DNA of 64,000 nt, taken from a virus. Numbering within the stretch: the first letter of the stretch is position 1; the number at the start of each line of letters is the position of its first letter. A program made the position numbers and the translations under genes. The DNA lies in IMG/VR virus record IMGVR_UViG_3300023116_005108, positions 1 to 64,000 of that record. One strand, 5' to 3'. Shown one piece after another: positions 4,801-47,395 of this stretch. The notes under the pieces were generated by a model that saw only the letters and a list, made by a program, of their open reading frames with translations, ran no database searches and was not told the origin of the DNA.

Positions 4801-5589
4801 TTAACTAGCTTAGAATATAGTGACAATGGAAGATTCTGTTTCCCGTTCGTAAAGTTTACTACTGACAGAGTTTTCTTGCCACAGCCTAAGCCGGGGCTTG
4901 CACAAGGAAAGGGTTTAACCAATGTGCCAAGTGCAGATGCATTCAAGAGATTTATTGGTGCTACGGATGTTAACGCTGGAGACTTAGATGGCTGTTCAAC
5001 ATGGGAGACATCTTATCTTGCAGCAAGCGGTAAAGCAAGACAATATAAAATAACATCCGACGATGTTGTAGAAAACCTTCAGCCATTTAAAGTATGCGTT
5101 TCTCCTAAATCTATAAATTATGCTCAAATTTCTACGAGATATGTTTATGGTCCTTGGATGACAAGTCTACCATATGTTCCATTCAGAGGTAAAATAGAAT
5201 ATGAGCAAGACGAATCATTGGTTCCAGAGAACTTTCTAATTCCAGTGGGATTTGGAACATTTGGATCTTATGACTTGTCTCAAACTAGCGGATTGACCGG
5301 AATGAATCTTGCCGCACAGGGTAGAGCAAATGCTATTGATGACTTTGCTTTGTTTGCAGTTGAAGAAGGCAGCTTTTCCATTCCGGGTGCTCCAGCAATT
5401 ACTAGAATTGGAGACGGTCTTTACGGACTGCAACAAGTTACAGACATTAAAATCAATGTAAGTTCAGACCAGATTGACACTACTTATACTTTTAAGACAA
5501 TTTCTCCAAGATTTGGCAAAAATAATAGAGATATTGAGAAGAATATAACTAAAATATCTAATAAGTTAAAGAAACTTAAATTAAGGTAA
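1840..5589 (+). CDS. large virion protein, possible baseplate hub or tail protein (1249 aa)
   Basis: A 1249-aa protein translationally coupled to its neighbour. The first ~120 residues read like a compact beta domain (SLSFRLIEDEGDGDRL, then FEYIGLVDSFSR and YSVSLTSPLTIL), a pattern seen in tail-hub-like proteins, where a short strand-rich domain precedes long insertions. Most of the rest is S/G/N/Y rich. Residues ~625-645 form an acidic/charged linker (EDESSQEDKEESTKK), followed by a stretch with several cysteines (about residues 650-730). The C-terminus is a basic helix (ISNKLKKLKLR). The hub assignment is weak; a virion role is likely from size and context. Confidence 0.5.
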   Translation: MPTDIQPFGTTSSQAAPDLAVIKAFGCTVVDFNVSADWSSQAGSLSFRLIEDEGDGDRLVIPVLGSPHIFELKDTSGNVLFEYIGLVDSFSRSSNNSKTYSVSLTSPLTILNATQVIMDGFAGLGGSLEANSDFSGTSYYDFGHNNSLITVDNSPGQYHWHNVSNLINVLGILENDHPNYRVPFATDSYGDFGYSGKSADGIPLIKLIWALHMGVNHLPTLSEEQRQRTHGGNLLFGRHNYNVIRDDEGIPYYYHFDAIGFYNQVIDASPNIGPQFRVGGSSKSIAEIVSEICQEANLEYFCYIDLNKNTDIDGNPIGDPTLQEDDPNWTQNAICNWPLNNSKFTEEGGKYGGTIRIKVLNKNSFFNGSRPFSNIAYNIIGLEVPDIKDSYWTTQDGIHPGKRPVNNTDYGLADLNDTTYSDPLDSSGIDSADEGFTGVGTQSIANGGTFPVATGYWDSSKLSDLKIKNSDVSIKLNDLTTMKVVTGGYQTRLVSVPRKYLRQYWGDIIIPNASDPRETADTATDSLGLNETSTRKIPVITNMLDPRDVDDFILIDMRSDFAGLTVPGVFKNGIYAASMLEIRCAMTGKGSWDAFFNDYKSKKFINLREHFYPNCVVPPTGEDESSQEDKEESTKKQNAAGGIGYAGACDILGIGNLFTQSLTTQSIVTETYDPDGQPQPCLTEDGTEVPAATYIEKQLTGCDDDGNPVYSDVEVTGQCPPVLTCAFANAQIRDYILPLIYERVKTIGDTHYGKSWYAPVPYLKTIEDLNGDNLVGNFKRSWELTDSAYVEPSQYYARQIPQSNMFINDGKVSPFINYDHSFIGDGAGWDENYAADLKNLFNGANVKVFNFSEYNLDSLCITKYGSYSILHASPSNIENQYSFLPYGYDAIYTRASLPFSSIVTGHRRYFQEYSSSGLGPESVTKAGSTNTSNNLSNYTLNNGQCTPSVCRSIADGDPTPSGYFAYSGVIGIPRETQPEWLNAIVPALTSLEYSDNGRFCFPFVKFTTDRVFLPQPKPGLAQGKGLTNVPSADAFKRFIGATDVNAGDLDGCSTWETSYLAASGKARQYKITSDDVVENLQPFKVCVSPKSINYAQISTRYVYGPWMTSLPYVPFRGKIEYEQDESLVPENFLIPVGFGTFGSYDLSQTSGLTGMNLAAQGRANAIDDFALFAVEEGSFSIPGAPAITRIGDGLYGLQQVTDIKINVSSDQIDTTYTFKTISPRFGKNNRDIEKNITKISNKLKKLKLR

Positions 5590-5593
5590 TACA

Positions 5594-7354
5594 ATGACTA
5601 AGGAACAGTTAGGTTGGTCATATAATCCAGCGTCTTTAATTCTTGTAGGCGAGATTACTGAAGCATTGCGGGCACAGGGCAATGTTTCTGCCACTGGAAC
5701 TAGAATAAATGCGACCGCTGATTCGCCAGTTAAAAGTGCAACTTATCATGAAATTCCACAGGCACAAGTTGGATTCATGCAGTATAGTGAATTTGCGAAC
5801 AGTGCTAGAAAATTTAATGAAATACCATCTACGGAAACTGCATATTCTGGAAGACATCCTTGGAATCTTATTGGTGCTACAAGTCTAGATGCGGTATTTT
5901 ATCCGTATACAACTCAAACGGATGAATACAGAGCGGGAAAATGGCTACCATATTGGACAAAGCCTACAGAAGCGGAAGGCGGCGATCCAACTGCAAGAGA
6001 GCTAAATCCATTCAATCCATTCAATGTTTTAGATGGAATAAATCCAAAGGGCGGATATTCTGTTGCTAATGATCCGTGGATGTCTAGCGGTCATAATATT
6101 GCAATGGCTTTAAATTATAATCCAAAAGATTCTGGTATAAATGGAAGTGGCGGATTTGTTGGAGACACTGGGATTTACCCTAGCGGATCTGGGTCTCCTA
6201 TTGACTTTTATTTTGAAAAGGATCATTGGGGCAGACATATAGTAGAAACTGAAGGCATTAGAGGCGTTGGCTTTAAAGCACCAATGGTTTTAACTGGATG
6301 GGGATACGATACTGGAGGTAATCCCGTTCCATCAAGTGGCAGTACTTTTCATCCACAAGCAATGTACAATCCGCATTTGTGGAAGTCTGGACCTGTTGAT
6401 TTAAGATGGGATGATGCGAGAGGCGTTTGGACCGGAGGAAATACTACTAAGATATATTTAGTAAAATTAACCAACGTTTACACTCCCCCAAGTTTTTCGT
6501 TTGAGGTTGATAGAAGTAATAGCAGAGATCAATATAGTAGAAATGCCCCACAAAATATGAGGGCTTTTGATTCTACCGAGGCTATATATGATCCTGAATA
6601 TCTAGCATATACTGCAAATGAAGATAACAAAAATTATTATGAACAACTGGATTATACAAGTTTAGAGTTTCCATTTTATGAAGCATTTATTATTCGCGAA
6701 ACTAAAGATTCGGTAGGTCAAAATTATTATAATATATGGACCAATGACTGTCAAGACTGTGGACATATTACAAATAGTGGATGCGGCACACAACATGGTA
6801 GCGATTCTACTGGTAAAAGAGTGTTGATAGAAAATCCTTTACGTCAATCATTTGATGTTGGAGATTTAGCATTCACTGTAGATACTGGACGTAGAAAAAA
6901 TGTAAATACAGGGTCTTTTATTGGCGGATCTGGAGAAAATGCTCGTGGTCAAATCGTGATTGATACAAGCGGTAATGGCTCTTTTCAAGTCACCTCGTCT
7001 GGATCTGGTTATACTTATGGAGGATTTGCACTATATTCTGGTTGCGATATTTGTGCTAGTCTAAGTTTAGTATTTTCTGATGGTAAACTAACAAGCGGAA
7101 CGTTAGATCCAAACACTGGTTTAACAAATTATGGATTAACATGTCCCGTTCAAATCTATGCAAATAATGCAACTGCTGAAACAGAGAGTCTACCAATACA
7201 TTGGGTGACTCAGGCAGAGTTTAAATCTCAGCAAGTTGTTACGCATGTAGAATGTGATAATGGCACTTTACAATCCTGTACATTAAAATTACAAACACAA
7301 GGATATAAGACCTGTGAGTGGTGTGGAGAAGACACGGCACTTATAAATAATTAG
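5594..7354 (+). CDS. putative virion structural protein (586 aa)
   Basis: No family recognised. The 586-aa protein starts four bases after the preceding stop. It is Gly/Ser/Pro/Trp rich, with loops such as GSGGFVGDTGIYPSGSGS. Its last third becomes cysteine rich (DCQDCGHITNSGCG near residue 390, a second group near 470, and CEWCGED at the extreme C-terminus). This composition resembles the following 2007-aa protein, so the two may assemble together. A structural role is inferred from size, composition and operon position. Confidence 0.5.
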   Translation: MTKEQLGWSYNPASLILVGEITEALRAQGNVSATGTRINATADSPVKSATYHEIPQAQVGFMQYSEFANSARKFNEIPSTETAYSGRHPWNLIGATSLDAVFYPYTTQTDEYRAGKWLPYWTKPTEAEGGDPTARELNPFNPFNVLDGINPKGGYSVANDPWMSSGHNIAMALNYNPKDSGINGSGGFVGDTGIYPSGSGSPIDFYFEKDHWGRHIVETEGIRGVGFKAPMVLTGWGYDTGGNPVPSSGSTFHPQAMYNPHLWKSGPVDLRWDDARGVWTGGNTTKIYLVKLTNVYTPPSFSFEVDRSNSRDQYSRNAPQNMRAFDSTEAIYDPEYLAYTANEDNKNYYEQLDYTSLEFPFYEAFIIRETKDSVGQNYYNIWTNDCQDCGHITNSGCGTQHGSDSTGKRVLIENPLRQSFDVGDLAFTVDTGRRKNVNTGSFIGGSGENARGQIVIDTSGNGSFQVTSSGSGYTYGGFALYSGCDICASLSLVFSDGKLTSGTLDPNTGLTNYGLTCPVQIYANNATAETESLPIHWVTQAEFKSQQVVTHVECDNGTLQSCTLKLQTQGYKTCEWCGEDTALINN

Positions 7355-7364
7355 GAATTTAAAA

Positions 7365-10300
7365 ATGGCTTTTATAACTCAGAGCGGGGACACTCCCTGT
7401 TATTCATGTGGCAAACAATGTATAAATGTAGAATTTTGTAGTGAAGGTGCCACATACGACCTAAGTGAATCAAACGGTATATCTCTTTCTAAGAATATAA
7501 AAGTTAAGATCATAGCCAACCCCGACTTTTGGGGCTTTGGAACTATAGAGGATAATGTTTTAATATCTGGCTGGGCCACATGGGGTACAAGCTACTACGA
7601 TTTCTTTGACGGTCATGACGAAGATCATTCAGCCACAAAAACATGTGGCAGTGTGACTTATGGGCCATTTATGAATGAACAACGTCCTGATGTATTTTAT
7701 AGGACCGTTTATGATCCTTACGACTCGTCATTAGCCCCTACATATAAAAAACATTATGATCAGGCTGGAGATTTAGATACCAGCACTCCACCAAAAGACA
7801 GGGGAGGTGCCGAGACTTACCTAGTAGATAGACCAAAAGGGCTTATAGAATATGTAACATCTGATGAAAATTCTTGCGACACTACAAGCCCAAACAAGGT
7901 TTTTAAGAAAACTCCAGAGAATTTTGGCTGGGGAAATAAGATAAACTTCAGCACAAAGATATTTAAAAACCTTAGTGGTGCATGGAGACTATCTAGTATA
8001 GAAAACTGTTATGAGACTGAAGATCTATACGCTCCTCCCGGATACCTATTAGATTGTAGTGGGGAGCCTAAGCAAAATATTGCTAGAGAAAGTCACCGCT
8101 TTGAGAAGTACGAGCATAATCAAAACCGAGCCAAGCTAACTGGTATTTCAAATTACTATAATTATGAATCCGGTTGTAGACCTGACGGTGCAGTAGCAGG
8201 AGAATACGCCGGTGGTTTTACAAATGCTAGTGGAATTTATCGTTCCGCCCAAGATGATTTTATACAAGCACGTTTCACTTATGGCGATGGTGCAGCCAGC
8301 GGTTTAAAAAATGGAATGACTTTAGGATTATATAACACCGTTAGTGGACAATTTAATGGGTCTTATACATTATTTGATGTTACCCATGAATCTAATTATA
8401 CTTCAGCAAAATTTGTAGGTACTCAAGGTGAAGAGATCTTCTCTTTATCTGGATTAGCCACGGAAAGTGGTGATCATTGGATAGCATTTAATACGTATGA
8501 TACTGACACATGCTGCGGACTGGCTGCATATGGAGTTGATGATAGATGGAAATCTACCTGTAATACTGACTTTCATGTAGACTTCAGGAGAGTCTTAAAT
8601 AATCCGAAAAATATTCGCCAGTCTAATAGAGATAGAGAATGGAGATACAATTACGGACTGTTTAATACAATTACTTCAAATGTTGATGCCGACAGTCCAA
8701 GATTTGATCAAAATTATGTATCAGTGAGTGGTGGGTACGCAATTATTCAGAGTGGTGAAGAATTAATCACCTTTTCTGGATCGTATATGAGCGGAATTCC
8801 ATATTTACAGAGAGAGATGTCGTATTACGGCCCCTTCTTCAATGTAGATGCTTGTGATGATGCAAAAAGACTAGAACAAAAACAAACGCGGCTGAAAAAT
8901 AAAAACGCTACATGTTACAGCAAAAGAGCGACCCTTGAAATATTTCCAGACTGTGTAACCCAATTTGATAAGTATAATGAATGTGAAACCGAGACGGAAA
9001 AATATAAACAAAATCGACTACCTAGATTAGCTTTTGTTTATCGTGGATGCGACTTTAATGACAAGTGTTCATTTGACAGCTCTGGTCTTCCGCTGGGAGG
9101 ATGGGAAAATTCTGAACCGGCAGATATGAATGATCTAAAAAGGCAGTTGGCCGGTCAAGAAATTCATATGTTTATTAATCTTGCCCGTGCTTGGGCCGGT
9201 AGGAAACCGGGATCTCCCTGTGTATGCGATTGTGGTGAAGACCCGCCTGATGGACAACGACCTCCAGTACATGTATCTATTCCTTCAGTAATGACCTTCC
9301 CGACACTGCCAAACTTCGATATTGATCCGACTGGATATGGATGCTTGGACGCAAGGTATCAGCTTCAGCAGTATAATCTATATGAAGGTCCGAATTATAC
9401 TGATCCTAACACAGAATTTTGTGATCCACTACATACATCTTGCTGTGCCTGTAATATACGACAGCCATATACTACATATGGTTACATTATGAATTTATGC
9501 GGTAAAGAAGACCGTAATAGAAAGGATGTTATTACTAAGGCGTTTGCTAAGTTAAATCATGAAAAAACCTACACTAATCAAACTCCGTTAATAGACATTG
9601 ATGAGCCTATGTACTGGAGTGTCACAGCCCCAATTCCAGCACCATTCAACCCCTCTAGTGGATTATGGAGTAGTGGAACATCCAGCAGGGACGATGAGGG
9701 TGGTGACTTTTTCCAATATGGAGGAAGTGGATATGGATGGTGGGGATTAGCTGACACAAACAAAGCCGTAATTGCTCCTTACTTTACAACAAAATGTGGC
9801 GAATTTAGCTGCTGCGGGACACCAGAATGCAATCATATAGATTATGATGCTAGTGGAACTTACACAAATGTTCTTGGCACTCATAATGGATGGCCTACTG
9901 ATGGAGTTCCGTTCTTTATTGAATGGGAAGTTGATGATAGATGTCTTGGATGTGTTAGTGCAAACATGAAGGCCGAGCCGCTCCATATAAAATTTAGTGG
10001 ATTAGGGACTGAATATATTTGGGACGAGGCTGATAGATACGGACATAACTACTGTAAATATGGTGATCCCGGATTTCTAAATCCGAAACTAGAGCCGGGA
10101 TTATTTACCTGTGCGGATGGATATGGAAATGATTATTGTGCCAGCGGAGATGGATTACGTAAAGAATATGGACATGCATATACTGGTGAAACCTGTGGAT
10201 GCCTTAGCTCCGAAGACGGATTTTCTGCAACATTAGAGCCTGTTGTAATTCCCAGCAGCGAGATTGTAATTGGATGGAGAAGCAGTCGGGACGGTGGTGG

Positions 10301-19227: not shown

Positions 19228-20855
19228 AATTCGTTCCCGTCTTTTAATTTAGATCTATTTATTCTCACATCTTCCCAGATATTATAATTCTGTAGTCTCC
19301 GACCAAATACATTAATAATTGACTGCCTATCAACTGGTCTTTGTTTATTTGGATTTGATGGAGTAAATTCATTAGAGAAATGATCATCCCACGCAATCTT
19401 GCTAGATCCTTTTGTTAGATCAGACATTAAGTTCCTCGTAAAGTACGAGTTTTTGTGCCCCTCGTAGTAGCAAAATAGTTCGGTTAACTCCCGCACAAAT
19501 CTTTCATTAGACTTTTCTTCCATATTTATTTTTGAAGGTCTAATGATATTTGCAGGCTGTTTCCAGTCAGCATATTCACAGTCGTCAATGACTTCCATCC
19601 ACTTTGCGGCAGTCTTGTCCCAGCTATAATGATCTTCAAATAGCTGACGAATATTACTCTTTTGAGTTTTGTCTGATAGAAAAGTTTTTATGATCTCTAC
19701 TATGCTATTCTCATCAACAACAGCACGATCACATCCAGTTTCTAATTCTTTATACTTTGTATAAGATATTGGATATGCATCTAGTTTATTAACAATGTCT
19801 TCCATAGCGGAATAGTTAGTGCAGGCAATTGGTATTCCACATGCAGCAGCCTCAACTTGAGGAAGACCGAACCCTTCTGAATTTGCTGGCTGAAGGTAAA
19901 GATCAAAAATGTTATATATCTTTGCCAGTATTTCATCTGAAACGCCATTAGATACACTAGACGGCATTGAACTAAATTTATTACATTTAAGGCAGACTTT
20001 TCTGGCATCTGAAAAAAAACAGACTTCAACATTTTTGCAATCTGTGTTTCCGCATACGTATGTCATTAAAACTCTAGAAGAGATATCATTAGAGTGGATT
20101 AAGTTTGCTAAATTCCATCCAGCGTCTGGATAGCTGGTATGCATATACAAATATGTTTTGGTGTCGCCAGTTTCTTTTAGATACTTACTAAATGCAGAAA
20201 TCAACGCGGGAAATAACTTCCGACGTTGATTCCTCATTACACTACCAATAATATTTATATCATCGCGGACGCCAAATTCATCTCTAACAGATTTTTGATT
20301 CATAGGAATGAAAGCATCGGATGCTGATGGAGGGGCAGAGCCAACTGTATTTATGTTCTTTCCAGCCTGTTCTTCTAGGACATTCTTAGCCCAATCAGAA
20401 TAGGTTAGTACATAATTTGCATCACAGAATAAATCAATCCATTCTGGATTCTGTGGCGATGCATCTACAGTTGGCATCCATGCCCATTTGAAAATTCTTC
20501 TATATGGAGAATGATATACAAAGGCATCCATCCAATAATCACGAATTGTTAAAACAATATCTGGCTCGAAATCTAAACAAACTCTTTCAAATCTCCAGCT
20601 TCCAAATTGATTGCCCGGACTAGAATTATACGATTTCATTTGTTCTTCGTTATGCTCATCTGGAAGAACTGGATAATTTTTCCAAGGAATACTGGAGCGT
20701 CTTGGATCATTAGCGGCTCCATATACAGACATTTCCGCTACATCGTATTTACCGCTTCTATATAGACGCGATATTACTTCCTTACTGTATTTTGCATATC
20801 CCGTATTTAGATATGCGGCCTCGCTAATGAAGAGTACTCTTTTTTTTCTAGCCAT
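19215..20855 (-). CDS. family 4-type glycosyltransferase with inserted zinc knuckle (546 aa)
   Basis: GT-B fold. The N-terminus KRVLFISEAAYLNTGYAKYSKEVI has the Gly-rich acceptor loop. The donor-binding half holds EGFGLPQVEAAACGIPIA (residues ~325-345), the E-x7-E signature of GT4 retaining enzymes. Between the halves (residues ~265-295) is an unusual insert with five cysteines (CGNTDCKNVEVC, then CLKC) that looks like a zinc knuckle. The C-terminal ~110 residues after the catalytic domain are an extra helical extension. It is the first glycan gene downstream of the sigma factor gene, overlapping it by 8 bases. Confidence 0.75.
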   Translation of the reverse strand: MARKKRVLFISEAAYLNTGYAKYSKEVISRLYRSGKYDVAEMSVYGAANDPRRSSIPWKNYPVLPDEHNEEQMKSYNSSPGNQFGSWRFERVCLDFEPDIVLTIRDYWMDAFVYHSPYRRIFKWAWMPTVDASPQNPEWIDLFCDANYVLTYSDWAKNVLEEQAGKNINTVGSAPPSASDAFIPMNQKSVRDEFGVRDDINIIGSVMRNQRRKLFPALISAFSKYLKETGDTKTYLYMHTSYPDAGWNLANLIHSNDISSRVLMTYVCGNTDCKNVEVCFFSDARKVCLKCNKFSSMPSSVSNGVSDEILAKIYNIFDLYLQPANSEGFGLPQVEAAACGIPIACTNYSAMEDIVNKLDAYPISYTKYKELETGCDRAVVDENSIVEIIKTFLSDKTQKSNIRQLFEDHYSWDKTAAKWMEVIDDCEYADWKQPANIIRPSKINMEEKSNERFVRELTELFCYYEGHKNSYFTRNLMSDLTKGSSKIAWDDHFSNEFTPSNPNKQRPVDRQSIINVFGRRLQNYNIWEDVRINRSKLKDGNELWLN

Positions 20856-21324
20856 TATTTGTTGCTAGCCTTTCTTTGATTTCTGAAAGTATTGAAGACA
20901 CTTTATTCGAGTTTAGATTTAGTTTTTTGCCAATAGCTCTATTGGATTCGCCATTTCTCTTTAGTGTCACAATCTTTTCTTCAATTGTATTTTTTAAATT
21001 ATAATAATCCAATACATCAGATTTGAGAATTTCTTCTGTTTCATCATAACTAAGGCTCTTTAATTCATTATAAATTAGTTCACGGCCAATCTTATTTTTT
21101 CTAATAAACTTTATCATATCATTCTTAGCACAGTGCGTAATAAATGTTGAGACCCTTCCTCGTTCTGGATTGTATTTATTTGCACTTTTGCAAATTGCTA
21201 AAAATCCAACTTGGATTAGATCTTCTATGCTAAATGCCTTGTTTGGGATATAAAGAGAATTTGCAATACTGTAGATAAGGTTTTTGTTCTCTTCAATCAT
21301 TTTTTCAACTTGAGAATCCATCAT
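20848..21324 (-). CDS. small phage sigma factor, sigma-70 family (158 aa)
   Basis: Region 2 is clear: NLIYSIANSLY, then FSIEDLIQVGFLAICKSANKYNPERG and VSTFITHCAKNDMIKFIRK (residues ~15-75), matching the core-binding and -10 recognition helices. After a short linker a region-4-like helix-turn-helix follows (TLKRNGESNRAIGKKLNLNSNKVSSIL, residues ~115-145). Region 3 is absent, as in minimal ECF-like and phage late sigmas. A strong GGAGG sits 3 bases before the first ATG and 6 before the second, so translation may start one codon in. It probably redirects host RNA polymerase to phage promoters. Confidence 0.75.
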   Translation of the reverse strand: MMDSQVEKMIEENKNLIYSIANSLYIPNKAFSIEDLIQVGFLAICKSANKYNPERGRVSTFITHCAKNDMIKFIRKNKIGRELIYNELKSLSYDETEEILKSDVLDYYNLKNTIEEKIVTLKRNGESNRAIGKKLNLNSNKVSSILSEIKERLATNNG

Positions 21325-21653
21325 CGTCCTCCGTACTTAATAATCTTAAACTCGTTAATTCTAAAACAAATTAGCTCACTTGTTGGTGAGCCACTATTAT
21401 CATGAGATATTGATCTGGCCGTTGAATCTACTATCAAAATGTAATCGCCGGGATCGGCATTAGATTCGATGGTCAGTGCTGCACCACCCCATGCTTCAAA
21501 GTTCAAAAGTTCATAATCAATTTTTTTGTTTTTAGACTTTGTACTTCTTCTATTTTCTATTTTAAGCTGTAATGTTATTTTACAAATACTGGAATCGACA
21601 TCTGTCTCAAAATTCTTGCTACGTATTTGCCCATAGAATATGCACTTATTCAT
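21321..21653 (-). CDS. SSB-like OB-fold protein (110 aa)
   Basis: A 110-aa protein with an OB-fold texture: MNKCIFYGQIRSKNFE, CKITLQLKIENRR, LLNFEAWGGAALTI, then PGDYILIVDSTARSI and a final IKYGG strand. The order of strands and the EAWGGAA segment match bacterial SSB (…FWGKQAE…). The C-terminal acidic tip is missing, so recruitment of partners must differ from cellular SSB. Located between the sigma factor and the polymerase C-terminal piece. GAGG lies seven bases before the ATG. Confidence 0.6.
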   Translation of the reverse strand: MNKCIFYGQIRSKNFETDVDSSICKITLQLKIENRRSTKSKNKKIDYELLNFEAWGGAALTIESNADPGDYILIVDSTARSISHDNSGSPTSELICFRINEFKIIKYGGR

Positions 21654-21662
21654 TTAACTGCC

Positions 21663-23222
21663 TCAAATGCTAAAAACTTTATCAATAATAAATGAATTTC
21701 TGGTTTTATCTTTTATTTGACCAGATAATAATACTGTGGCTCTATCGTATATTATATCTTTGTTTTGCTCGTATACATCAGGAAAAATAACAATATTTTC
21801 TAATTCTCCAGAATCATCTTCGGCAGATACAAAAGCCATGATGTCGCCGTTCTTAGTTTTATGCTCTCTAACAGTTTTAATAATTACAGCAATAACACAA
21901 TTGTCTGCTCTGCCATCTGTCAATTGTTTACATGTGGCATTTGCGTGACATGCATCTGAACAGGCGTTGAGTTCCGAGTGATTAATCGCATATCCAAGCA
22001 GCTTTTCTTCTATTCTAGCATATGTCATGGAGTTGTCAGCAAGATTCCTGCCGGGATTTTGAATTCTCATCAAGATATCCTCAATCTTCATGTATCGGCT
22101 CTGTGTAGATATAAATCCTCCATCCTTTTTAACTCCATAGGATAGTAGATTTTTTACAATTTCTGCCGCTGTTAAATTATTAATATTGAGATGTTCTTGT
22201 ATTGACTGCATTTCTTTCTTGGTAAAGTCAGAAAAGCAGTGAAACTCATGAATCATTTCCGTTCTTGATTTGCCAAGACCAGCAAACGCACCAACGCTAA
22301 TTAAGTTTTCTATAGCTCTCTTATTTACATTAGGTAGTACATGAACCAATAGGTTGGACCAGTTTATGCTTGAAATATTTGAGATACTATCCTTTAATTG
22401 TTGGAGATGAATTGCACCAACATTCTTGACGTTGCAAATGCCGAAATGAATAGCTGGAAACATACCATCGCGTTTTCCGAAAGTGAAGTTTTCCTCAAGT
22501 ACTGAAATGCTTGGACCTTTGATTTCAAGACCTTCCGCTCTTGCTGCCATAATAAGTTGACGCTTTTCCATATCGGGATCAATCTTATCATCGGCATCTC
22601 GTAGCCAGTTTTTCATAAACCTGTCAACATAGTAATTTTTTATATAAGCTGACCAATAGGCCATTTTAGCATATGCTACTGCATGAGATTTATTGAATGA
22701 ATACCTAGCCGACTTTTCGATCATGTCAAAGATCTCAGTAGCCTTGCTTTCTTCAATATTATTTTGTTTAGATCCATCAATAAACTTGACGCGAACCTGC
22801 TTCATCAGATCCGCCTTCTTTTTACCAATAGCCTTGCGTAAGTCGTCTGCCTCTTTCAAGTTGAATCCAGCCATCTTAACAGCGATTTCCATCGCCTGTT
22901 CTTGATATACAATAACTCCGTAAGTTTCTTCAAGTAGCTTATCAATAGCTGGATGCAGGCTTGGAACTTTATCTTTACCATGCTTTCTATCTACATAATG
23001 CTGGGTCATAGACTTTCCATCGACGAAAGCCTTTAAGGTTCCGGGTCTAATAATACTAATCAGTGCTGCTAATTCAAGAATATTATCAGGCTTCAGTGCC
23101 CTGCACCATGTCTTGCCAAGATGACTCTCAATTTGAAAGCATCCCTTGACACGGCCTTCGCCAATCATATCCCAAACGGCACGATCATTTTCATTCAATT
23201 TTGTGATATCAATCTTCTGCAT
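21663..23222 (-). CDS. dnaE: DNA polymerase III alpha, C-terminal part: fingers to OB fold (519 aa)
   Basis: The C-terminal piece of a DnaE-type replicative polymerase. It begins at the linker just before the fingers (KGCFQIESHLG), continues with ISIIRPGTL, EETYGVIVYQEQAMEIA, the DLRKAIGKK helix and the SFNKSHAVAYAKMAYWSAYIK motif, then a HhH-type region (KRAIENLISVGAF). It ends with an OB fold (AVIIKTVREHKTKNGDIMAF to VLLSGQIKD). A Cys-rich insert (CSDACHANATCKQ) precedes the OB fold. The palm and PHP parts are on a separate gene at 23927-25765, with the exonuclease gene between. Start lacks a strong Shine-Dalgarno (AAGG nine bases off). Confidence 0.85.
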   Translation of the reverse strand: MQKIDITKLNENDRAVWDMIGEGRVKGCFQIESHLGKTWCRALKPDNILELAALISIIRPGTLKAFVDGKSMTQHYVDRKHGKDKVPSLHPAIDKLLEETYGVIVYQEQAMEIAVKMAGFNLKEADDLRKAIGKKKADLMKQVRVKFIDGSKQNNIEESKATEIFDMIEKSARYSFNKSHAVAYAKMAYWSAYIKNYYVDRFMKNWLRDADDKIDPDMEKRQLIMAARAEGLEIKGPSISVLEENFTFGKRDGMFPAIHFGICNVKNVGAIHLQQLKDSISNISSINWSNLLVHVLPNVNKRAIENLISVGAFAGLGKSRTEMIHEFHCFSDFTKKEMQSIQEHLNINNLTAAEIVKNLLSYGVKKDGGFISTQSRYMKIEDILMRIQNPGRNLADNSMTYARIEEKLLGYAINHSELNACSDACHANATCKQLTDGRADNCVIAVIIKTVREHKTKNGDIMAFVSAEDDSGELENIVIFPDVYEQNKDIIYDRATVLLSGQIKDKTRNSFIIDKVFSI

Positions 23223-23259
23223 CTTTATTGACCTTGTTATTTTTTTTCTTTATGTTCAA

Positions 23260-23940
23260 TCATGCAAATGCACCCTTAAACGTTTTACGAGACGCTGTGC
23301 TTCTTAACATTCTCATAGTTCTACAGAATAATTCCGCTGTCATAATAACGTCGGACATTGCATCATGTGCCGTCCCTTTATCGTAACCCATATATCCACG
23401 GACAAGATTATCGGCAGAAAGTGAATTCACATCTTTATTGTTTTCAAACAATGCAAACATAAAGTCAAGCATGTCAATGCTATGAATTCGATTGAACAAA
23501 TCCTGCTCGCCACGCTTGTTATCTACAGGTCCAAAATTCCACGGATCTGTCGTACATAGGCGATTCACGATGATAGAGTCAAAACCCTTGATATTATATC
23601 CTACAGATACTGGTGCCGACCAATTACTTCCTTTGAAGTTGTACTGATTGACGTAATCTGTAAAGTTTTTCCAGACGGCTTTAATAGTTGGTGCCTTCTT
23701 TAGCATTTCTGCGGTCTTTCCGTGAACTGCAACGGCACCATCTTCAAGCGGGTCAACACCAAGTGTTTCACACTTTTTTATGTTTAGCTCTGGCTTCATT
23801 AAAGACTGAAACTCGGAACCTTCTTTGATTTCAAGTTTACGACCATGAACAACAACAGCGGCAATCTGTACGGGTTGTGTTGTGTACGGATTAGCTGATG
23901 TAGTTTCAAAGTCATAAACAATGTAGTCACGATAATTCAT
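23260..23940 (-). CDS. DEDDh 3'-5' exonuclease, DnaQ-like proofreading subunit (226 aa)
   Basis: All four DEDDh motifs are visible: YDFETTSANPY (Asp and Glu, residues ~8-18), VSVGYNIKGFDSIIV (Asp, ~115), and AHDAMSDVIMTAELF (His and Asp, ~195). I chose the ATG giving MNYRDYIVYDFET, with AGGA eight bases before it, over a TTG five codons upstream. It overlaps the polymerase N-terminal gene by 14 bases and precedes the C-terminal gene by 37, so polymerase and proofreader are coexpressed. It probably acts as the epsilon-like subunit of the split polymerase. Confidence 0.85.
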   Translation of the reverse strand: MNYRDYIVYDFETTSANPYTTQPVQIAAVVVHGRKLEIKEGSEFQSLMKPELNIKKCETLGVDPLEDGAVAVHGKTAEMLKKAPTIKAVWKNFTDYVNQYNFKGSNWSAPVSVGYNIKGFDSIIVNRLCTTDPWNFGPVDNKRGEQDLFNRIHSIDMLDFMFALFENNKDVNSLSADNLVRGYMGYDKGTAHDAMSDVIMTAELFCRTMRMLRSTASRKTFKGAFA

Positions 23941-25765
23941 AATTAATTTCCTCAACAGTATTTGAAATTTTCTCCAGAAGAGAAACGCCTAAAATGTCAA
24001 ATTTAACACATCCAATAGCTTCTAAGTCGCCCATTTCCATGCCCGCAATTTGCTCGGAACTACGAGATGATTTTACCATAGGGCAGATTTTTGTCAAGTC
24101 ATCAGATGCAATTACAACGCCAGCAGCATGTTTGCCTTGAGTTTTGAAGACGCCTTCCATACGCATTGCCTGCTCAAACACCTTAGCATACTCGCCTTGT
24201 AGAGTATCGTCATCGTCAAGCCAGCAGTAATCAATTAGAGAATTCCTGTCATTTTCCAAAGCCCAGCGAATTACTGATGGATTATCCATTTCTTCCAGCA
24301 GGTCGGAAATGGCAGCTTCGTTTGGAATCCTCTCCGTAATCTTATTCATTTCGTCAAAACTGCACGACTCATTGACTCTTAACACTTCCTTCAAAATAGA
24401 CCTTCCTGCAAGTCTACCAAATGTAAGCATCTGGCAAACTTGACTATCGCCATATTTATTCTTTAGATATTCGACAACCTTATCACGGTACGATGGCGGA
24501 AAGTCAATGTCGATATCGGGAAGTGATACATGATCTTCAGTATTTCTACCTTCATTATAGAATCGTTCAAAAATCAAGCCATATTCAATTGGGTCGATTA
24601 GAGTAATTCCTGTGAGATAGCATACTAATGATCCACCACCAGAACCTCGACCGGGACCAACCAAGCATCCTTGATTTCTAAAATAGTTAACATAATCTTG
24701 AACGATTAAGAAGTATCCGGCAAGATTTGCCTTTTCGATAACCTCTAGCTCTTTAAGTACACGATCTTTATATATATCATATTTATATGGATCTACTCCA
24801 GTCATAATGAGACGTTTCCATCCCTTACGACATAGCTCCTTTAGATATTCATCTTCAGTGCTTCCATCCGGAGTTTCAAAGTTTGGCAGCTTAGGTTTGG
24901 ATAGGATATTAATGTCGGCACACAATTCAGTAATCTTGTCAAGATTATCTACCTGTTCTGAACTGTATGCTGCTTCAATAGCTTCTCTAGTCTTGATATG
25001 GTATGAGCTACTCCTAATAAATTTAAGCAAGTCGATATCTTTAGCATTGCTAATCTTATCGGCAAGTTGACGCATAGTTGTCTTCAGCTTAGTACAGATT
25101 AATACGCGATGATCAACAGCATCTTTTCTTTCGGGATAATAACTTGATGTATTCGGAATTACATTGTCATAGACGGATAGAATGTCAGACATTACCTTGG
25201 AGATCGGGAAAGTATCTGAGTCAAGATTGTTGACTTCTAGATAATAATGAGCAAATGTTTGATGCATCAACGCTATTTCATCATTGAGTATTTCTTTCCA
25301 GTTATTGTCAATGCATGACTTAACCATTTCAATATCGGCAGCATCAAAGATGCAGTCTATATTTGGAAATAGTTTATTAAATAGCTTACTACCGACATAG
25401 CCATCAATGCAGATAAAGTTGTCTGGATTAATGCTTTGTGTCAAATCGGCAAATGAAATTTTTGGAGTGCCATCATGGTTATCTTTAGAATTGGCCTGAG
25501 ATATAACTCCGAGTAAATCATCCCATGCTTCAATATTTCTACATACAAGAGTTAGTCTTGAATTATCATCTAAGATAATCTCAGATCCAATGAGCGGGGT
25601 GATATCTTCCTTTTTACATGCTTGTATGAAATTAACGCAGCCGCTAATCGTGGCTACATCAGTAATTCCAGCATATCTATATCCAGCATCTTTGCAGGCT
25701 TTGGCAATCTGCTTAGATCGAGATGTAGACATAAGTAATGAATAATGGCTGTGATTTCTAATCAT
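23927..25765 (-). CDS. dnaE: DNA polymerase III alpha, N-terminal part: PHP and palm (612 aa)
   Basis: The N-terminal piece of a DnaE-type polymerase. Residues 1-70 are the PHP domain (NHSHYSLLMSTSRS, ITDVATISGCVNF, PLIGSEI); the usual His in ITDHG is replaced by Val, so the PHP site may be inactive. The palm follows: YFLIVQDYVNYF, GCLVGPGRGSGGGSLVCYL, LPDIDIDFPPSYRD (the two catalytic Asp), then QGKHAAGVVIAS and VKFDILGVSLLEKI (third catalytic Asp). The gene stops about 20 residues after that third Asp, at the palm/fingers border. Together with the C-terminal piece it equals about 1130 residues, the usual DnaE length. AAGGA precedes the ATG. Confidence 0.88.
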   Translation of the reverse strand: MIRNHSHYSLLMSTSRSKQIAKACKDAGYRYAGITDVATISGCVNFIQACKKEDITPLIGSEIILDDNSRLTLVCRNIEAWDDLLGVISQANSKDNHDGTPKISFADLTQSINPDNFICIDGYVGSKLFNKLFPNIDCIFDAADIEMVKSCIDNNWKEILNDEIALMHQTFAHYYLEVNNLDSDTFPISKVMSDILSVYDNVIPNTSSYYPERKDAVDHRVLICTKLKTTMRQLADKISNAKDIDLLKFIRSSSYHIKTREAIEAAYSSEQVDNLDKITELCADINILSKPKLPNFETPDGSTEDEYLKELCRKGWKRLIMTGVDPYKYDIYKDRVLKELEVIEKANLAGYFLIVQDYVNYFRNQGCLVGPGRGSGGGSLVCYLTGITLIDPIEYGLIFERFYNEGRNTEDHVSLPDIDIDFPPSYRDKVVEYLKNKYGDSQVCQMLTFGRLAGRSILKEVLRVNESCSFDEMNKITERIPNEAAISDLLEEMDNPSVIRWALENDRNSLIDYCWLDDDDTLQGEYAKVFEQAMRMEGVFKTQGKHAAGVVIASDDLTKICPMVKSSRSSEQIAGMEMGDLEAIGCVKFDILGVSLLEKISNTVEEINYELS

Positions 25766-25797
25766 ATATCAATTCCTTACACTTACAGCAAGTTTTA

Positions 25798-26814
25798 CTA
25801 ATTACTTTCATTATCTTCTCCAAGTCTACCTCCACCAGCACCATATTTTCCAAGTTTATTCAAATTAGCATGTTCGCATACAACAGTGTTCATACCCTTA
25901 GATCTTATCAAATCATGGAAGTATTGGCAAGTAGTTTTTCCAGAATCTTGAAACTCTTCTGAAAATTTACACAATTTTGTACACTTCCAGTTTTGCTGAT
26001 CTATAGAGAGTTGTCTCGGCAGGTCAACTGATCGGATGTATTCAAACTTTTCCCGAAGCATGTCTTCTGCTTTCTTGTAATCCTCTTCGCTAAAGACAAT
26101 ATCAAAAACCCCGCCATTATTAACATAATAAATGGATACATAGAAATTTCTTTCTGGGAAGAGATTCTTTAATGCGTAATAATAGAGTAGCAATTGTTTA
26201 TCAGAGCAAAGATCTTCGTAGGTCTTTTCTTTACCTGTTGCCCAATTCAATCGCTTGCCGGTTTTATAATCCAAGACTTGGAAGTACAGATCATCCTCTT
26301 TGATAATTACGTCGATTGTGCCCTTGATAGAAAGATATCCATCAAATACTTTGTCATTAATCTCATATCGGTACTTAGCCCAATCTTGCTTAATCTCAAT
26401 ATCAAAGAATTGCTCTGTGGCATTGATATTTTGATTTCTCGGGTCCATATAGCCATCATTGTAAGCTAATGCTTTGTATACCCATCCAATACATGTCTGT
26501 AGATCTTTTGGTCCTAAGCCAACATCTTCTTCATGATATTTGTAGTATTCAAAGCATAGCTCTGTAACGAATTCTATATCATCGCATTGAGCAAACGTTA
26601 AGTCCTGAATGTCATCATTCTTCAGTTTTCTTTTCTTCTCTTCTTGAGCCTTTTTCTTGTCAGCCAGTACCTGCATTACACGATGAAAGACCGTACCTAG
26701 TACGGCCTTTTTATTCGTTTTATCTTTCATGCCTAATACGTACTGAAAGAAATATTTCATTTCGCACATCTCAAACGTGCCTAATGAACTGCTTCTATGG
26801 TAACATATAATCAT
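25798..26814 (-). CDS. RecB/Cas4-type PD-(D/E)XK nuclease (338 aa)
   Basis: The N-terminus has FEMCEMKYFFQYVLG, the first helix with a Cys, as in RecB-family nucleases. The active site follows: AVLGTVFHRVMQ (His), IKGTIDVIIKEDD (Asp) and LYFQVLDYKTGKRL (Asp-x-Lys), then QLLLYYYAL (the QxxxY helix). The C-terminal part has further cysteines (CTKLCKF, CQYF), so with the N-terminal Cys an iron-sulfur cluster as in AddB/Cas4 is possible. It probably processes DNA ends in recombination or replication. It lies between the polymerase and the dNMP kinase gene. Confidence 0.75.
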   Translation of the reverse strand: MIICYHRSSSLGTFEMCEMKYFFQYVLGMKDKTNKKAVLGTVFHRVMQVLADKKKAQEEKKRKLKNDDIQDLTFAQCDDIEFVTELCFEYYKYHEEDVGLGPKDLQTCIGWVYKALAYNDGYMDPRNQNINATEQFFDIEIKQDWAKYRYEINDKVFDGYLSIKGTIDVIIKEDDLYFQVLDYKTGKRLNWATGKEKTYEDLCSDKQLLLYYYALKNLFPERNFYVSIYYVNNGGVFDIVFSEEDYKKAEDMLREKFEYIRSVDLPRQLSIDQQNWKCTKLCKFSEEFQDSGKTTCQYFHDLIRSKGMNTVVCEHANLNKLGKYGAGGGRLGEDNESN

Positions 26815-26820
26815 ATTAAA

Positions 26821-27642
26821 TCACTTTATTGATGCGGTGTACTTGCCCATTTCTCTGATCTTTTTGGTGACACCAAGGTTAATTAGTTCATCCAAGAATG
26901 CCTTGCATGATTGATTAATATCTAAATTTGAATTATCAATGATTGCGTCAAACTTATTATAATTGTCTGCGTCAATTTCACTCTGATGAGTGCTTTCATA
27001 GAGTGAGCGAGTTAGTCTAATAACTTTTCCACCACGCTTTTGCACAGCCTCAATCTCATTTAAGAATCGACAGTCGCCAATAACAGCAATCTCTGGTTTA
27101 TCAGCTTCAATTCTTCGAAAGCAATTTTCCAACCAGATTGGCTGGTACATTTTACGCATAACGTCTGTGCCAAAGAATTGCATGAACTCACGAGCGGTCA
27201 TTGGTCCCTTATGATGACATATCTTACCGTTGGGACCAATATCGCTAGTATCTCCCGGCATATTTTCCCATAATAGATGCTCCTGAATCTGATTCTTTTG
27301 TTCGTCTGTTCCATAGACACATTCTGGTGGAATATTAAATAGCATAACACAGATTTCTTTTAATGAATCTGCGAAATTATAGCCGCGAATAAGAGGCCAA
27401 ATTCTACGAGAGGCATATTGGAAAAATTCATCCGTATGCTGCTGTAGATCAAGAACTCCAAGTTCTTCAAACTCTTTTCCATTTTCATCATGAAAAGTAC
27501 AGTTTACCACAAGCTCCCCTTCCGGGGAAATTAGAAACTTTTCAACAATATCATGGCGTTTCATCTCATGACCATGTAGATAGTTGGAAAGAGTAGTCTT
27601 TCCTGATTGCTTTTTACCGCATAATGCAATGATCTGTGTCAT
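26821..27642 (-). CDS. deoxynucleoside monophosphate kinase (273 aa)
   Basis: A P-loop kinase of the T4 gp1 type. The Walker A motif is ALCGKKQSGKTT (residues ~6-17). The characteristic C-terminal half has REFMQFFGTDVMRKMYQPIWLENC and IAVIGDCRFLNEIEAVQKRGGKVIRL, both typical of phage dNMP kinases, and ends with a helix carrying FDAIIDNSNLDI. It phosphorylates dNMPs to dNDPs and, with NrdAB and MazG, feeds replication. I chose the ATG one codon into the open frame; it overlaps the primase stop in a TGATG. Confidence 0.8.
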   Translation of the reverse strand: MTQIIALCGKKQSGKTTLSNYLHGHEMKRHDIVEKFLISPEGELVVNCTFHDENGKEFEELGVLDLQQHTDEFFQYASRRIWPLIRGYNFADSLKEICVMLFNIPPECVYGTDEQKNQIQEHLLWENMPGDTSDIGPNGKICHHKGPMTAREFMQFFGTDVMRKMYQPIWLENCFRRIEADKPEIAVIGDCRFLNEIEAVQKRGGKVIRLTRSLYESTHQSEIDADNYNKFDAIIDNSNLDINQSCKAFLDELINLGVTKKIREMGKYTASIK

Positions 27643-28646
27643 CAAAATTTTCCTTGAATTTGAGGCTTGATTAGTTCATTGACTTCATTGACTGTCATAT
27701 CGCCAATGTCGTTTTTGGGAATTTCCACAGTATAAATATTAAATAAAAGTTTCAATCGCTCATATATGTCTCTTTTACAAGCGTCACCCGCTTTATCATT
27801 GTCAGACATAATAATCACATTTGAAACGCCGGTCTTTTGAATCAGAAATTCTTGAGCATCGCTAATCTTTGAACCGAATATTCCAACGGCATTTCTAATA
27901 CCAGATTCCCAAAGACGGATAACATCGCCTTGTCCCTCTGCTAGTATTATAGTCGCACTTCTACTAATATGCTCAATTGCTTTTCCGTAATTATACAAAA
28001 AGTTGGATTTATTGAATCCCTTTTGGTTAATCCATTTTCTAGGGTCATTACCTATAGTTCTACCGACGCATCCAACCATGTACTCATCATTCTCATCGTA
28101 CACTGGAAATACAATACGCTTGTACATTTGACTATCGGGCCTAGTGCATAATCCTACATCAAAAAGATCTAGTGCTTCTTGAGAGAATCCTCTATTGATA
28201 TAGTATTGTGCAGGAAAGGTAAGGTGTTTCCTTACCGTAGATCTTGTTATCTTATTTTGTAGTTTCTCAACTTTTCTTGTATTTTTCAGTAATTTATCTA
28301 GTGCTTCTGATGACTTATAAGTAATTGAAATGTCTATTTTTACGCCAGAGCAAAAATCTTGACAGAACTTAATAACTTCTGGAAACTTATAAGGTTTTTT
28401 GAATTTATTCTCAAGGAGCATCCAGACTAAAGAAATAATATCATTAGTTGACTTCTCATTGTGACATCCCTGAGTATTACAAAACCATTTACCGCAGTGA
28501 TCTTCATGATCTTCGTCAATATTGATATTGAATGCAGTAACATTGTCTCCTTCATGGACTGGACAAGAACTTATCAGTAGGTTATGTGACTCGTAATATT
28601 CATTAATTTCAAAAAAGGCAAAGAAATCAAAAATCTTCTTCACCAT
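27642..28646 (-). CDS. DnaG-like primase (334 aa)
   Basis: Residues ~20-70 hold a zinc-binding domain (SCPVHEGDN, then WFCNTQGCH). The TOPRIM core follows: YMVGCVGRTIG, ILAEGQGDVIRLWESG (catalytic Glu), VGIFGSKISDAQ and VIIMSDNDKAGDACKRDI (DxD). The usual C-terminal helicase-binding domain is missing, so the protein is shorter than cellular DnaG. I chose the start at MVKKIFDFFAFFEI because upstream sequence codes for the end of the helicase; longer starts would overlap the helicase gene by up to 107 bases. The Shine-Dalgarno is unclear (AGGA very close). It makes RNA primers beside the DnaB-like helicase. Confidence 0.8.
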   Translation of the reverse strand: MVKKIFDFFAFFEINEYYESHNLLISSCPVHEGDNVTAFNINIDEDHEDHCGKWFCNTQGCHNEKSTNDIISLVWMLLENKFKKPYKFPEVIKFCQDFCSGVKIDISITYKSSEALDKLLKNTRKVEKLQNKITRSTVRKHLTFPAQYYINRGFSQEALDLFDVGLCTRPDSQMYKRIVFPVYDENDEYMVGCVGRTIGNDPRKWINQKGFNKSNFLYNYGKAIEHISRSATIILAEGQGDVIRLWESGIRNAVGIFGSKISDAQEFLIQKTGVSNVIIMSDNDKAGDACKRDIYERLKLLFNIYTVEIPKNDIGDMTVNEVNELIKPQIQGKF

Positions 28647-30105
28647 CTTCCTCTTCAAAATTCGCATTTTGCGAATTTGCAAATCCTTGTTGATTGTTGT
28701 TTGCATTACTCTTAATCTCTCTAATAGTGCCAACTTCTCTTACTTTTGCAAACTTGCCGTCCATTTGCAAGCATATATAACCTTCGTCTTCCATTCCGGG
28801 TCCATGTCTGGAAACAATTGGTATAAGTTTTTTATTTCCATTGTTTATTCCATCCGTAACTTTTTCTTCATCTGACTTATCCTTGAAGATTGAGAATGAA
28901 GTACAGAGCCAAACTAAACGGTCAGATCCGGAAACTACATCTGTAGATTCCTTGGTAATACCATCTCTATTAAGCTGCACAAATGACAAACACGGGCAAT
29001 CATTCTCTACACAAAAATTATGCAGTGAAGTGATCTGAAAACCGAGAACTTGGAATTCTGCAAGATTGTTATTAATACTAGAAGATGTCATCAGTTTTAG
29101 ATAGTCATAAATAATCACGCAGTCATTTAGTCTTCCTGTTTCATCATAGCCAACTCTCTTTAATAGCCATCTTTTGATAATAGATAGTGTTTCATCAAAT
29201 GGTCTACCAGCAATGCTAATATAGTCATAAGGTATAGATTCAATAGTCTCTACAGATTTTGTCACAGAGTCTACTTTTTCAGGATCTGTAGCAAATTTAC
29301 CGGATGCAACATCATTAATTTCAACACCGCTTTTATTTGCAATGATTCTATTCCAGTGATCTTCTGTGCTCATTTCTGTATCAAGCATAAGTACTGGTAT
29401 ATCATACTCTCCAGCAATATGCAAGGCAATATTATCGGCAAGTACAGATTTTCCAGTTTTGGGACGAGCAGCAATCAGGTCTACGCATTTTCGACGCAAG
29501 CCGCCTCCAATAGCCTTATCGAATGCACTCATACCAGTTGGAATACCAATAGACTTGCCATCATTATTCTTGATATGTTCTAGATATGCATGGATGCCTT
29601 CGCCAATAGATTTTGGAGAAAGATCATCTTCCTTCATGAAGGATAGACATACATCTTGAATAGGGTTTTCTGCAATCGACAAAATGCTGGCGATGTCCTC
29701 ATCTCCAGTAACTTTGTTCAGGTTTAAATAAATGTCTCTGAGCTTACCCTGCATGATTCTGGCAAATTCAAGCCTCTTTAGTTTTTTGGCGTGCTCTGCG
29801 ACATTATTAATATTAACCGGAGTATTCATAACTCCAGTGATATGTTTTAGCATATCATTTTTTTCAACAAATTCGTCTAGGTTTAGACTCTTTGCTGATG
29901 ACAGGATCTCTGTATAACCAACAACATCTCCACTTTCGAATGAATGCTTAATGCACTTATATAGGACTTTGTTATTTTCGATTGTGAAACTCTCTTCATT
30001 TACGAAGAGTTCAACTTCTAGTAAGCATTCCTTACCATGCTGTAAAAGTCCGGCAAGAACAGCACGTTCAGAAGCTACATTTTTCAAATCGGTTTCTTTA
30101 GACAC
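28627..30105 (-). CDS. DnaB-like replicative helicase (492 aa)
   Basis: The N-terminal helical domain has ASERAVLAGLLQHG and continues to residue ~150; the RecA-like C-terminal domain follows with GIPTGMSAFDKAIGGGLRRKCV, Walker A ARPKTGKSVLA, LMLDTEMSTEDHW (catalytic Glu region), DCVIIYDYLKLM (Walker B) and a late SFVQLNRDG segment. A C-terminal Asn/Gln-rich then acidic tail (NFEEEDGEEDF) is unusual. I favour the GTG start at 30105, nine bases after GGAG; an ATG at 30129 and a TTG at 30138 also exist. It unwinds the fork together with the primase coded immediately downstream. Confidence 0.85.
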   Translation of the reverse strand: MSKETDLKNVASERAVLAGLLQHGKECLLEVELFVNEESFTIENNKVLYKCIKHSFESGDVVGYTEILSSAKSLNLDEFVEKNDMLKHITGVMNTPVNINNVAEHAKKLKRLEFARIMQGKLRDIYLNLNKVTGDEDIASILSIAENPIQDVCLSFMKEDDLSPKSIGEGIHAYLEHIKNNDGKSIGIPTGMSAFDKAIGGGLRRKCVDLIAARPKTGKSVLADNIALHIAGEYDIPVLMLDTEMSTEDHWNRIIANKSGVEINDVASGKFATDPEKVDSVTKSVETIESIPYDYISIAGRPFDETLSIIKRWLLKRVGYDETGRLNDCVIIYDYLKLMTSSSINNNLAEFQVLGFQITSLHNFCVENDCPCLSFVQLNRDGITKESTDVVSGSDRLVWLCTSFSIFKDKSDEEKVTDGINNGNKKLIPIVSRHGPGMEDEGYICLQMDGKFAKVREVGTIREIKSNANNNQQGFANSQNANFEEEDGEEDF

Positions 30106-30107
30106 TA

Positions 30108-30647
30108 TCAAATTCTCCGCGAAATACATTTGTCGCAAATGTAATTTTCTCTAGCAAACATTGGATTGACATCAAAGGATTTATTGCATTGTGAGCATGT
30201 AACACTTTTAGTTTGATATTCTCTACGCTTTCTTTCTACTCTAGGAGAGTTAGAGTCATCAATACTGTTGAAGCCTCTTTCCTGCTCAGCCTCTTCTAAA
30301 ACTCCAGCCATTGACTCAAACTTATTTTGACCAGAAGACTTTACCGACCGTTTTGGCTTGGATGATTTTATTGAGAAATTTTCATCTACTTTAGGTTCTG
30401 ACTTTTTGGTTTTAGATCTACCGTTCCTTCTGTTCTTTTTGGGAGGATCTTGCTTCTCTAACTTTTCAAGTCTTTCCATCATATTTTTAAGACTGGCGGA
30501 TAATTCATCCACAGGTTCTGGCTCTGGAATATCTACTTTTTCTCCGGAAATCATTTGATATGCTTCTGATATACATTCCCAATTACTGTCAATGATGCCA
30601 TCATAGAGCAATTCCCGCACTTTATCAACTAAATCTGTTAACGTCAT
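30108..30647 (-). CDS. hypothetical protein with C-terminal zinc ribbon (179 aa)
   Basis: Residues 1-75 are helical (DLVDKVRELLYDG, LKNMMERLEKLEKQ, a short coiled coil). Residues ~70-115 are a very basic linker (KKNRRNGRSKTKKSE, KPKRSVKSSG) that could touch nucleic acid. The C-terminal ~35 residues hold two CxxC pairs (CSQCNKSFDV and CDKCISRR), a zinc ribbon. AGGAG lies six bases before the ATG. The gene directly precedes the helicase, so a helicase loader or DNA-binding accessory is possible, but I cannot name a family. Confidence 0.5.
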   Translation of the reverse strand: MTLTDLVDKVRELLYDGIIDSNWECISEAYQMISGEKVDIPEPEPVDELSASLKNMMERLEKLEKQDPPKKNRRNGRSKTKKSEPKVDENFSIKSSKPKRSVKSSGQNKFESMAGVLEEAEQERGFNSIDDSNSPRVERKRREYQTKSVTCSQCNKSFDVNPMFARENYICDKCISRRI

Positions 30648-46811: not shown

Positions 46812-47037
46812 CTTCCTCTTGGGTCTTAACGTATATTACTTCATCTGCTCTTAGAAGTATTACTTCCCGTCCAATATCAGTATCACTAATAACCTCTATA
46901 CAATTATCACTAAGTTCACCAGAAAAAACATCGTAGATTTGATCTACTAGCAATGTTGAAGCGTCTTTTTTAAGGAAGACGGTTATATCCTGATTATTTC
47001 TTAGATGTATTGTAATCCTTCGTTTTTCACCTGACAT
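46801..47037 (-). CDS. hypothetical small beta-rich protein (78 aa)
   Basis: Not recognised. A 78-aa protein with several short strands (RRITIHLRNNQDITVFLKK, NCIEVISDTD, EVILLRADEVIYVK) and an acidic end (TQEEDDE). I chose the ATG overlapping the SSB stop (TGATG). The fold might be a small SH3-like or OB barrel. It is coupled to the SSB gene, so a DNA-linked role is possible. Confidence 0.4.
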   Translation of the reverse strand: MSGEKRRITIHLRNNQDITVFLKKDASTLLVDQIYDVFSGELSDNCIEVISDTDIGREVILLRADEVIYVKTQEEDDE

Positions 47038-47375: not shown

Positions 47376-47380
47376 AACAC

Positions 47381-47395
47381 ACCTCATTATAGTCT
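47381..47395 (-). promoter_or_regulatory. candidate promoter element, copy 2 (AGACTATAATGAGGT)
   Basis: The same 15 bases as at 14083-14097, on the same strand, and again between a terminator-like hairpin and the first gene of a unit. TATAAT (minus, 47386-47391) would place a transcription start very close to the SSB ATG at 47375, giving a nearly leaderless message. No good -35 is visible, so a phage sigma or activator would be needed. Confidence 0.4.

Follow-up and report, generated by a model that had tools for sequence, protein, structure and literature searches.

Two genes flanking a proofreading-type exonuclease gene encode the parts of a DnaE-type DNA polymerase in a group of phages

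A stretch of viral DNA of 64,000 nucleotides (hereafter the window; positions 1–64,000 of IMG/VR record IMGVR_UViG_3300023116_005108, a viral contig of 84,273 bases) carries a DnaE-type DNA polymerase as two genes on the minus strand, with a DEDDh exonuclease gene lying between them. The first gene, dnaE-N (23927–25765), encodes a protein of 612 amino acids to which Pfam and a structure model assign PHP, palm and thumb domains. The last, dnaE-C (21663–23222), encodes 519 amino acids that by the same means comprise the fingers, HhH and OB domains. Matches above the Pfam cut-offs were obtained to PF02811 (PHP) and PF07733 (Pol III alpha palm) in dnaE-N, to PF17657 (fingers) and PF14579 (HhH) in dnaE-C, and to PF00929 (RNase_T) in the exonuclease (23260–23940; 226 amino acids). 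The exonuclease also matches phrog_192, DNA polymerase exonuclease subunit, in the PHROG collection, which supplies names for only a few of the window's proteins. In keeping with a preliminary description of this DNA made from its letters, all three frames are intact and each has its own ATG start. The ATG of the exonuclease lies at position 23940, and a TTG at 23955, given as its start in the list of open reading frames (ORFs), is probably not the true one. The end of dnaE-N and the start of the exonuclease gene overlap by 14 nucleotides (23927–23940), and a spacer of 37 nucleotides (23223–23259) separates the exonuclease gene from dnaE-C, with both features again on the minus strand.

The break falls between the palm and the fingers. 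The preliminary description had assigned all three catalytic aspartates to the first gene, had placed the end of this gene about 20 residues beyond them, and had seen no residues missing between the two pieces; closer analysis bears out each of these points. The motifs PDIDIDF and VKFDILG both lie within dnaE-N, and 19 residues separate the latter from the end of the protein. Alignment with DnaE identifies the first two catalytic aspartates in codons 417–419 (D-I-D; 24509–24517) and the third in codon 590 (23996–23998). On profile alignment to Thermus DnaE, the N protein reaches residue 630 and the C protein starts at residue 643, or at residue 584 on E. coli DnaE. AlphaFold models of the two proteins, built on 40-row alignments, have mean pLDDT values of 89.2 (N) and 89.8 (C). 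The N model superposes on residues 8–577 of E. coli alpha in both 2hnh (Z 35.6, root-mean-square deviation [rmsd] 3.5, 549 residues aligned) and 5fku. The C model covers residues 572–910 of 2hnh (Z 17.7, rmsd 3.7, 323 aligned) and residues 572–1073 of 5fku (Z 21.6, 460 aligned), where an rmsd of 8.9 indicates that the placement of domains differs. As modelled, the two proteins follow on from each other along a single E. coli alpha chain with no gap, and the conserved residues at the break are all present. The cut is located after the helix that follows the third catalytic aspartate and before the first helix of the fingers. At the other end, dnaE-C stops after the OB fold, and nothing was matched beyond E. 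coli residue ∼1073. PHROG profiles that start near residue 415 of N or end near residue 413 hint at further break points.

The same arrangement recurs throughout a clade of viral contigs. Scans with the C protein (16 loci) and with an eight-row alignment (best 80 of 147) together yielded 83 distinct loci, among them four near-copies of the window's phage (L002–L004 and L012). The order N, exonuclease, C is present in 82 of these, and the palm and fingers occupy separate frames in the same number, whereas a one-polypeptide core is usual for DnaE, although homology does not depend on it; the remaining locus (L017) is cut such that only part of C is visible. In one locus (L016) C is truncated by the contig end, and in another (L030) the N frame is short and FFKEH stands in place of FNKSH. 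A scan with the N alignment (best 80 of 599 stretches) returned 74 loci split with the exonuclease between, plus six that run off their contigs, one of which ends after the exonuclease. The same break is found in related phages by two overlapping scans. The N- and C-based scans share contigs and were both seeded with motifs of the clade, and therefore their counts do not measure how often DnaE is split among all phages. Clustering of 156 loci, with contigs partly shared, by N identity gives 103 clusters at 99%, 62 at 80% and 17 at 70%. The lowest identity to the window, among the matches listed, is 41% for N and 38% for C. As a separate observation, the dnaE-C proteins of seven loci (L043, L050, L070–L073 and L083) carry an additional Cys-containing stretch ahead of the fingers.

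Because the same break recurs in many contigs, chance and sequencing error can be set aside as its source, and no error that would rejoin the frames is apparent. Polymerase genes that appear broken in a single genome do have precedents. The polymerase of Serratia phage KKP 3709 is annotated as several pieces, and one bacterial dnaE locus (L148) has a stop inside its N region. An error of sequencing or assembly, or a gene broken in one phage, is nonetheless an explanation to which we give almost no credence, given that the identical break with an inserted gene is present in 82 loci, down to ∼40% identity.

Residue conservation was examined in 40 representatives drawn from the 82 loci, with short pieces and near-duplicates left out. 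Aspartates D417, D419 and D590 of N are invariant in all 40, as are the FNKSH motif (codons 176–180 of dnaE-C; 22683–22697, minus strand), which always lies inside C, and residues D10, E12, D121, H192 and D197 of the exonuclease. The ratio of nonsynonymous to synonymous substitution rates (dN/dS) was computed for 20 hand-picked pairs, with pairs lacking a value being either identical or saturated. Values range from 0.005 to 0.165 for N (17 pairs computable), from 0.022 to 0.070 for C (12 pairs) and from 0.006 to 0.061 for the exonuclease (14 pairs), and all three genes are under purifying selection. Together with the layout shared across the clade, this result upholds the earlier view of a stable two-gene organisation. 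Pairwise distances of the three proteins correlate at 0.91–0.92, a value equalled in none of 999 permutations, and one that shared descent alone would also produce.

We consider it very probable that these genes encode the phage's own replicative C-family (DnaE-type) polymerase, turned permanently into two genes by fission, whose halves dock with each other and are served by the exonuclease as proofreader. Fission would have occurred in the loop that runs from the final helix of the palm to the opening helix of the fingers (E. coli alpha ∼572–577), and N, exonuclease and C would be produced from one gene run. Translational coupling of the three is probable because the genes often overlap. The halves are predicted to dock non-covalently along the old palm–fingers interface, with N contributing the PHP, palm and thumb domains and the three catalytic aspartates, and C contributing the fingers, HhH and OB domains. 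Since all three catalytic aspartates reside in N, the C protein would supply the fingers and template binding rather than catalytic carboxylates. The DEDDh exonuclease would proofread for the combined N and C proteins. Assembly of the halves, their polymerase activity and their partnership with the exonuclease are expectations drawn from the sequences of the genes.

Alternatively, the pieces might be remnants, or might have been repurposed, while a host polymerase copies the phage DNA. Two observations would fit such a scenario. A beta-clamp domain was found in none of 12 records of the group (84–167 kb, none rated at least 90% complete, and including the near-identical phages G000 and G001). 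Also, the PHP metal site looks degenerate, with E at position 62 in 26 of the 40 representatives and H never at position 38, as mapped by eye. Decay or repurposing seems unlikely to us, however, in view of the low dN/dS values of all three genes, the invariance of the palm, fingers and exonuclease residues and the retention of both pieces in every one of the 82 loci in which the stretch is complete. Genes for a DnaB-like helicase (28627–30138; PF03796, PF00772) and a Toprim primase (27642–28733; PF13662, PF08275), which lie upstream in the same minus-strand gene run, likewise speak against it.

The lack of a clamp match and the state of the PHP site also weigh against a replicative polymerase of the phage's own, as do several further points. 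The gap between dnaE-N and the exonuclease gene exceeds 150 nucleotides in 45 of the 82 loci, and so coupling is not general. The link between exonuclease and polymerase is made by position, by residues and by a weak match to a PolC exonuclease domain (E 0.00015). Finally, the search for other polymerases covered two families, PF00136 and PF00476, neither of which was matched in any of the 12 records, and in records less than 90% complete a further polymerase could be missed. Each of the 12 has a single PF07733 match (in frames of 522–641 amino acids) and a single PF17657 match (518–561 amino acids) on separate frames, and no intact dnaE is seen in any of these possibly fragmentary records.

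Cyanobacterial DnaE is also encoded by two genes, with a break in the FNKSH region and halves that are joined by a split intein. As noted in the preliminary description, the break studied here is at another site, since FNKSH is intact in C; and whereas the cyanobacterial enzyme is rejoined by protein splicing, no intein domain was detected in N or C with Pfam. If splicing of protein or RNA, or programmed frameshifting, nevertheless united N and C into an ordinary one-chain DnaE, there would be parallels in phages as well as in cyanobacteria: the PolB of phage MIJ3 is split and carries a split intein (PMC6892783), and introns interrupt phage polymerase genes (PMC2988022). We regard such joining as very improbable. 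Besides the lack of an intein, no Rfam match was found in window positions 21000–26500 up to an E value of 1, so no intron is seen there. No intron was found in eight other loci at the Rfam gathering threshold, with a single tRNA in L018 as the only match. Moreover, each piece has its own start, and a complete exonuclease gene together with a widely varying distance between N and C could not be crossed by frameshifting.

The junctions between the genes vary considerably. Adjacent genes overlap or lie at most 10 nucleotides apart at the N/exonuclease junction in 33 of the 82 loci, at the exonuclease/C junction in 63, and at both in 24. Among the 45 loci with an N/exonuclease gap of more than 150 nucleotides, 31 contain an ORF of 71–96 amino acids with a common YQV motif (for example, L031 5078–5326, L034 5092–5313 and L061 3383–3631, plus 28 other loci). 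This small ORF, for which no Pfam match was found in the three examples searched, is a candidate for an extra replicase subunit. The exonuclease/dnaE-C junction looks like an insertion hotspot, and endonuclease VII-type genes (PF02945) occupy it in L005 (5586–6005), L074 (5607–6011) and L077 (5600–5995). Of ten junction ORFs checked, these three are endonuclease VII-like, one encodes a uracil-DNA glycosylase (L070), one encodes an FkbM-type methyltransferase (L075) and five are without a match. By analogy with T4-like phages, for which this route has been discussed (PMC2988022), one might guess that insertion of a mobile endonuclease gene led to the splitting.

A DnaE gene cut at the same loop is present in the cultured Rossellomorea phage phiT1 (PV767480), on which our literature search found no paper. 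Its halves, gp20 and gp18, have 573 and 469 amino acids, and an ORF of 49 amino acids with no exonuclease match lies between them, in contrast to the exonuclease found there in the window's group. A viral locus (L094, recovered again as L179; 3788–4975) is also cut at this loop, and its halves are separated by RNase HII and small ORFs. The 16 rows from the clade form one group with full support in a 42-row tree, and phiT1 is placed with Bacillus-type phages and bacteria. Forcing phiT1 into the clade costs 40 log units (approximately unbiased [AU] test, p = 0.0148), with the caveats that this test was picked after the tree had been viewed and that several branches are long. This result speaks against a single origin of the two splits. 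L094 may be a distant sister of the clade, a placement with weak support (88/24).

Elsewhere the site is usually uninterrupted. Bacterial dnaE loci read through it in one frame in 79 of 80 cases, the other being L148, and the bacterial genome contigs scanned (best 80 of at least 575) carry ordinary dnaE with 28–36% identity. Among 14 records from phage collections (L018–L025, L096–L098 and L183–L185), phiT1 alone has its DnaE broken at this loop, and in the other 13 the palm end and the fingers start share one frame. Five other viral contigs (L093, L095 and L180–L182) also have fused DnaE. When 50,697 phage records were searched with four N and C queries, every best place was below 60% identity; the best matches show ∼29–31% identity over nearly the whole query and up to 38% over shorter stretches. 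The exonuclease query gave no match in the phage records. Two side observations concern these collections. In L024 (Bacillus phage vB_BpsS-140), DnaE appears broken between PHP and palm into two overlapping frames (3839–4930 and 4888–7446), both unannotated. L019 and L020, filed as phages (MT836213 and Pseudomonas phage Y1), have dnaE surroundings that by eye resemble a bacterial chromosome.

A more elaborate possibility, which we entertain only tentatively, is that the group possesses an old replicase that is obligately multi-subunit, with palm/PHP, exonuclease and fingers/OB as separate proteins. The exonuclease would then help to hold the halves together, synthesis would depend on the proofreader, and in part of the clade a conserved protein of ∼75 amino acids, encoded between N and the exonuclease, would also help. 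The loop between palm and fingers would then be a site naturally suited to fission, used at least twice.

Compared with bacterial Pol III alpha (DnaE; E. coli 2hnh and 5fku, Thermus 2hpi), the window pair has the same domains in the same order. However, the bacterial protein is one chain, whereas the enzyme proposed here would comprise two polypeptides, cut near E. coli residues 572–577, with a degenerate-looking PHP site. Split phage polymerases are already known, and the layout in the window differs from those described. Group 2.2 jumbo phages have a minimal split Pol III alpha, whose two proteins are believed to rebuild the enzyme together (Iyer et al. 2021, PMC7824862). As described there, this polymerase lacks other Pol III domains, its genes are distant from each other, a family B polymerase is present alongside, and the split parts the NTP-binding subdomain from the Mg2+/template-binding one. 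In contrast to that account, the window's group has the catalytic aspartates and the GS motif together in N and retains the PHP, HhH and OB domains. Its three genes are neighbours in all 82 loci that show them, and PF00136 is unmatched in its 12 records, which may be fragments.

In the T4-like phages 25 and 44RR, PolB is encoded by two genes as gp43A and gp43B, and the pieces from phage 25 co-purify and have polymerase activity (PMC2988022). The T4-like enzymes belong to family B and have a seg endonuclease gene or an untranslated stretch between their genes, whereas the window's group has a proofreading-type gene in this position. Phages related to the OM43 phages use PolA. In the OM43 phages MEP401 and MEP402, and in most group I genomes, the polymerase is divided over two genes that flank a small ORF (PMC10580990). 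A literature search, with most subscription papers and all bioRxiv preprints lying outside it, found no Pol III alpha split at the palm–fingers border. What has been added to the preliminary description is the layout shared by a whole clade, the same break in a cultured phage and the existence of another split Pol III alpha in print (PMC7824862).

With this phage group and the probably separate fission in phiT1, the need for a covalent palm–fingers link in processivity and fidelity becomes testable. A replicative polymerase of the C family is ordinarily one chain. Natural halves would be useful for structural work and for split-polymerase tools. Gene-by-gene annotation can miss phage replicases of this kind or count them twice.

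Other genes in the window deserve brief mention. An ORF adjoining dnaE-C (21321–21653) appears by eye to resemble single-stranded DNA-binding protein (SSB), and Pfam and PHROG searches with it gave no match. A protein with sigma-70 region 2 is encoded two genes downstream of dnaE-C (20848–21324), and an SSB recognised by PF00436 is encoded at 47037–47387.

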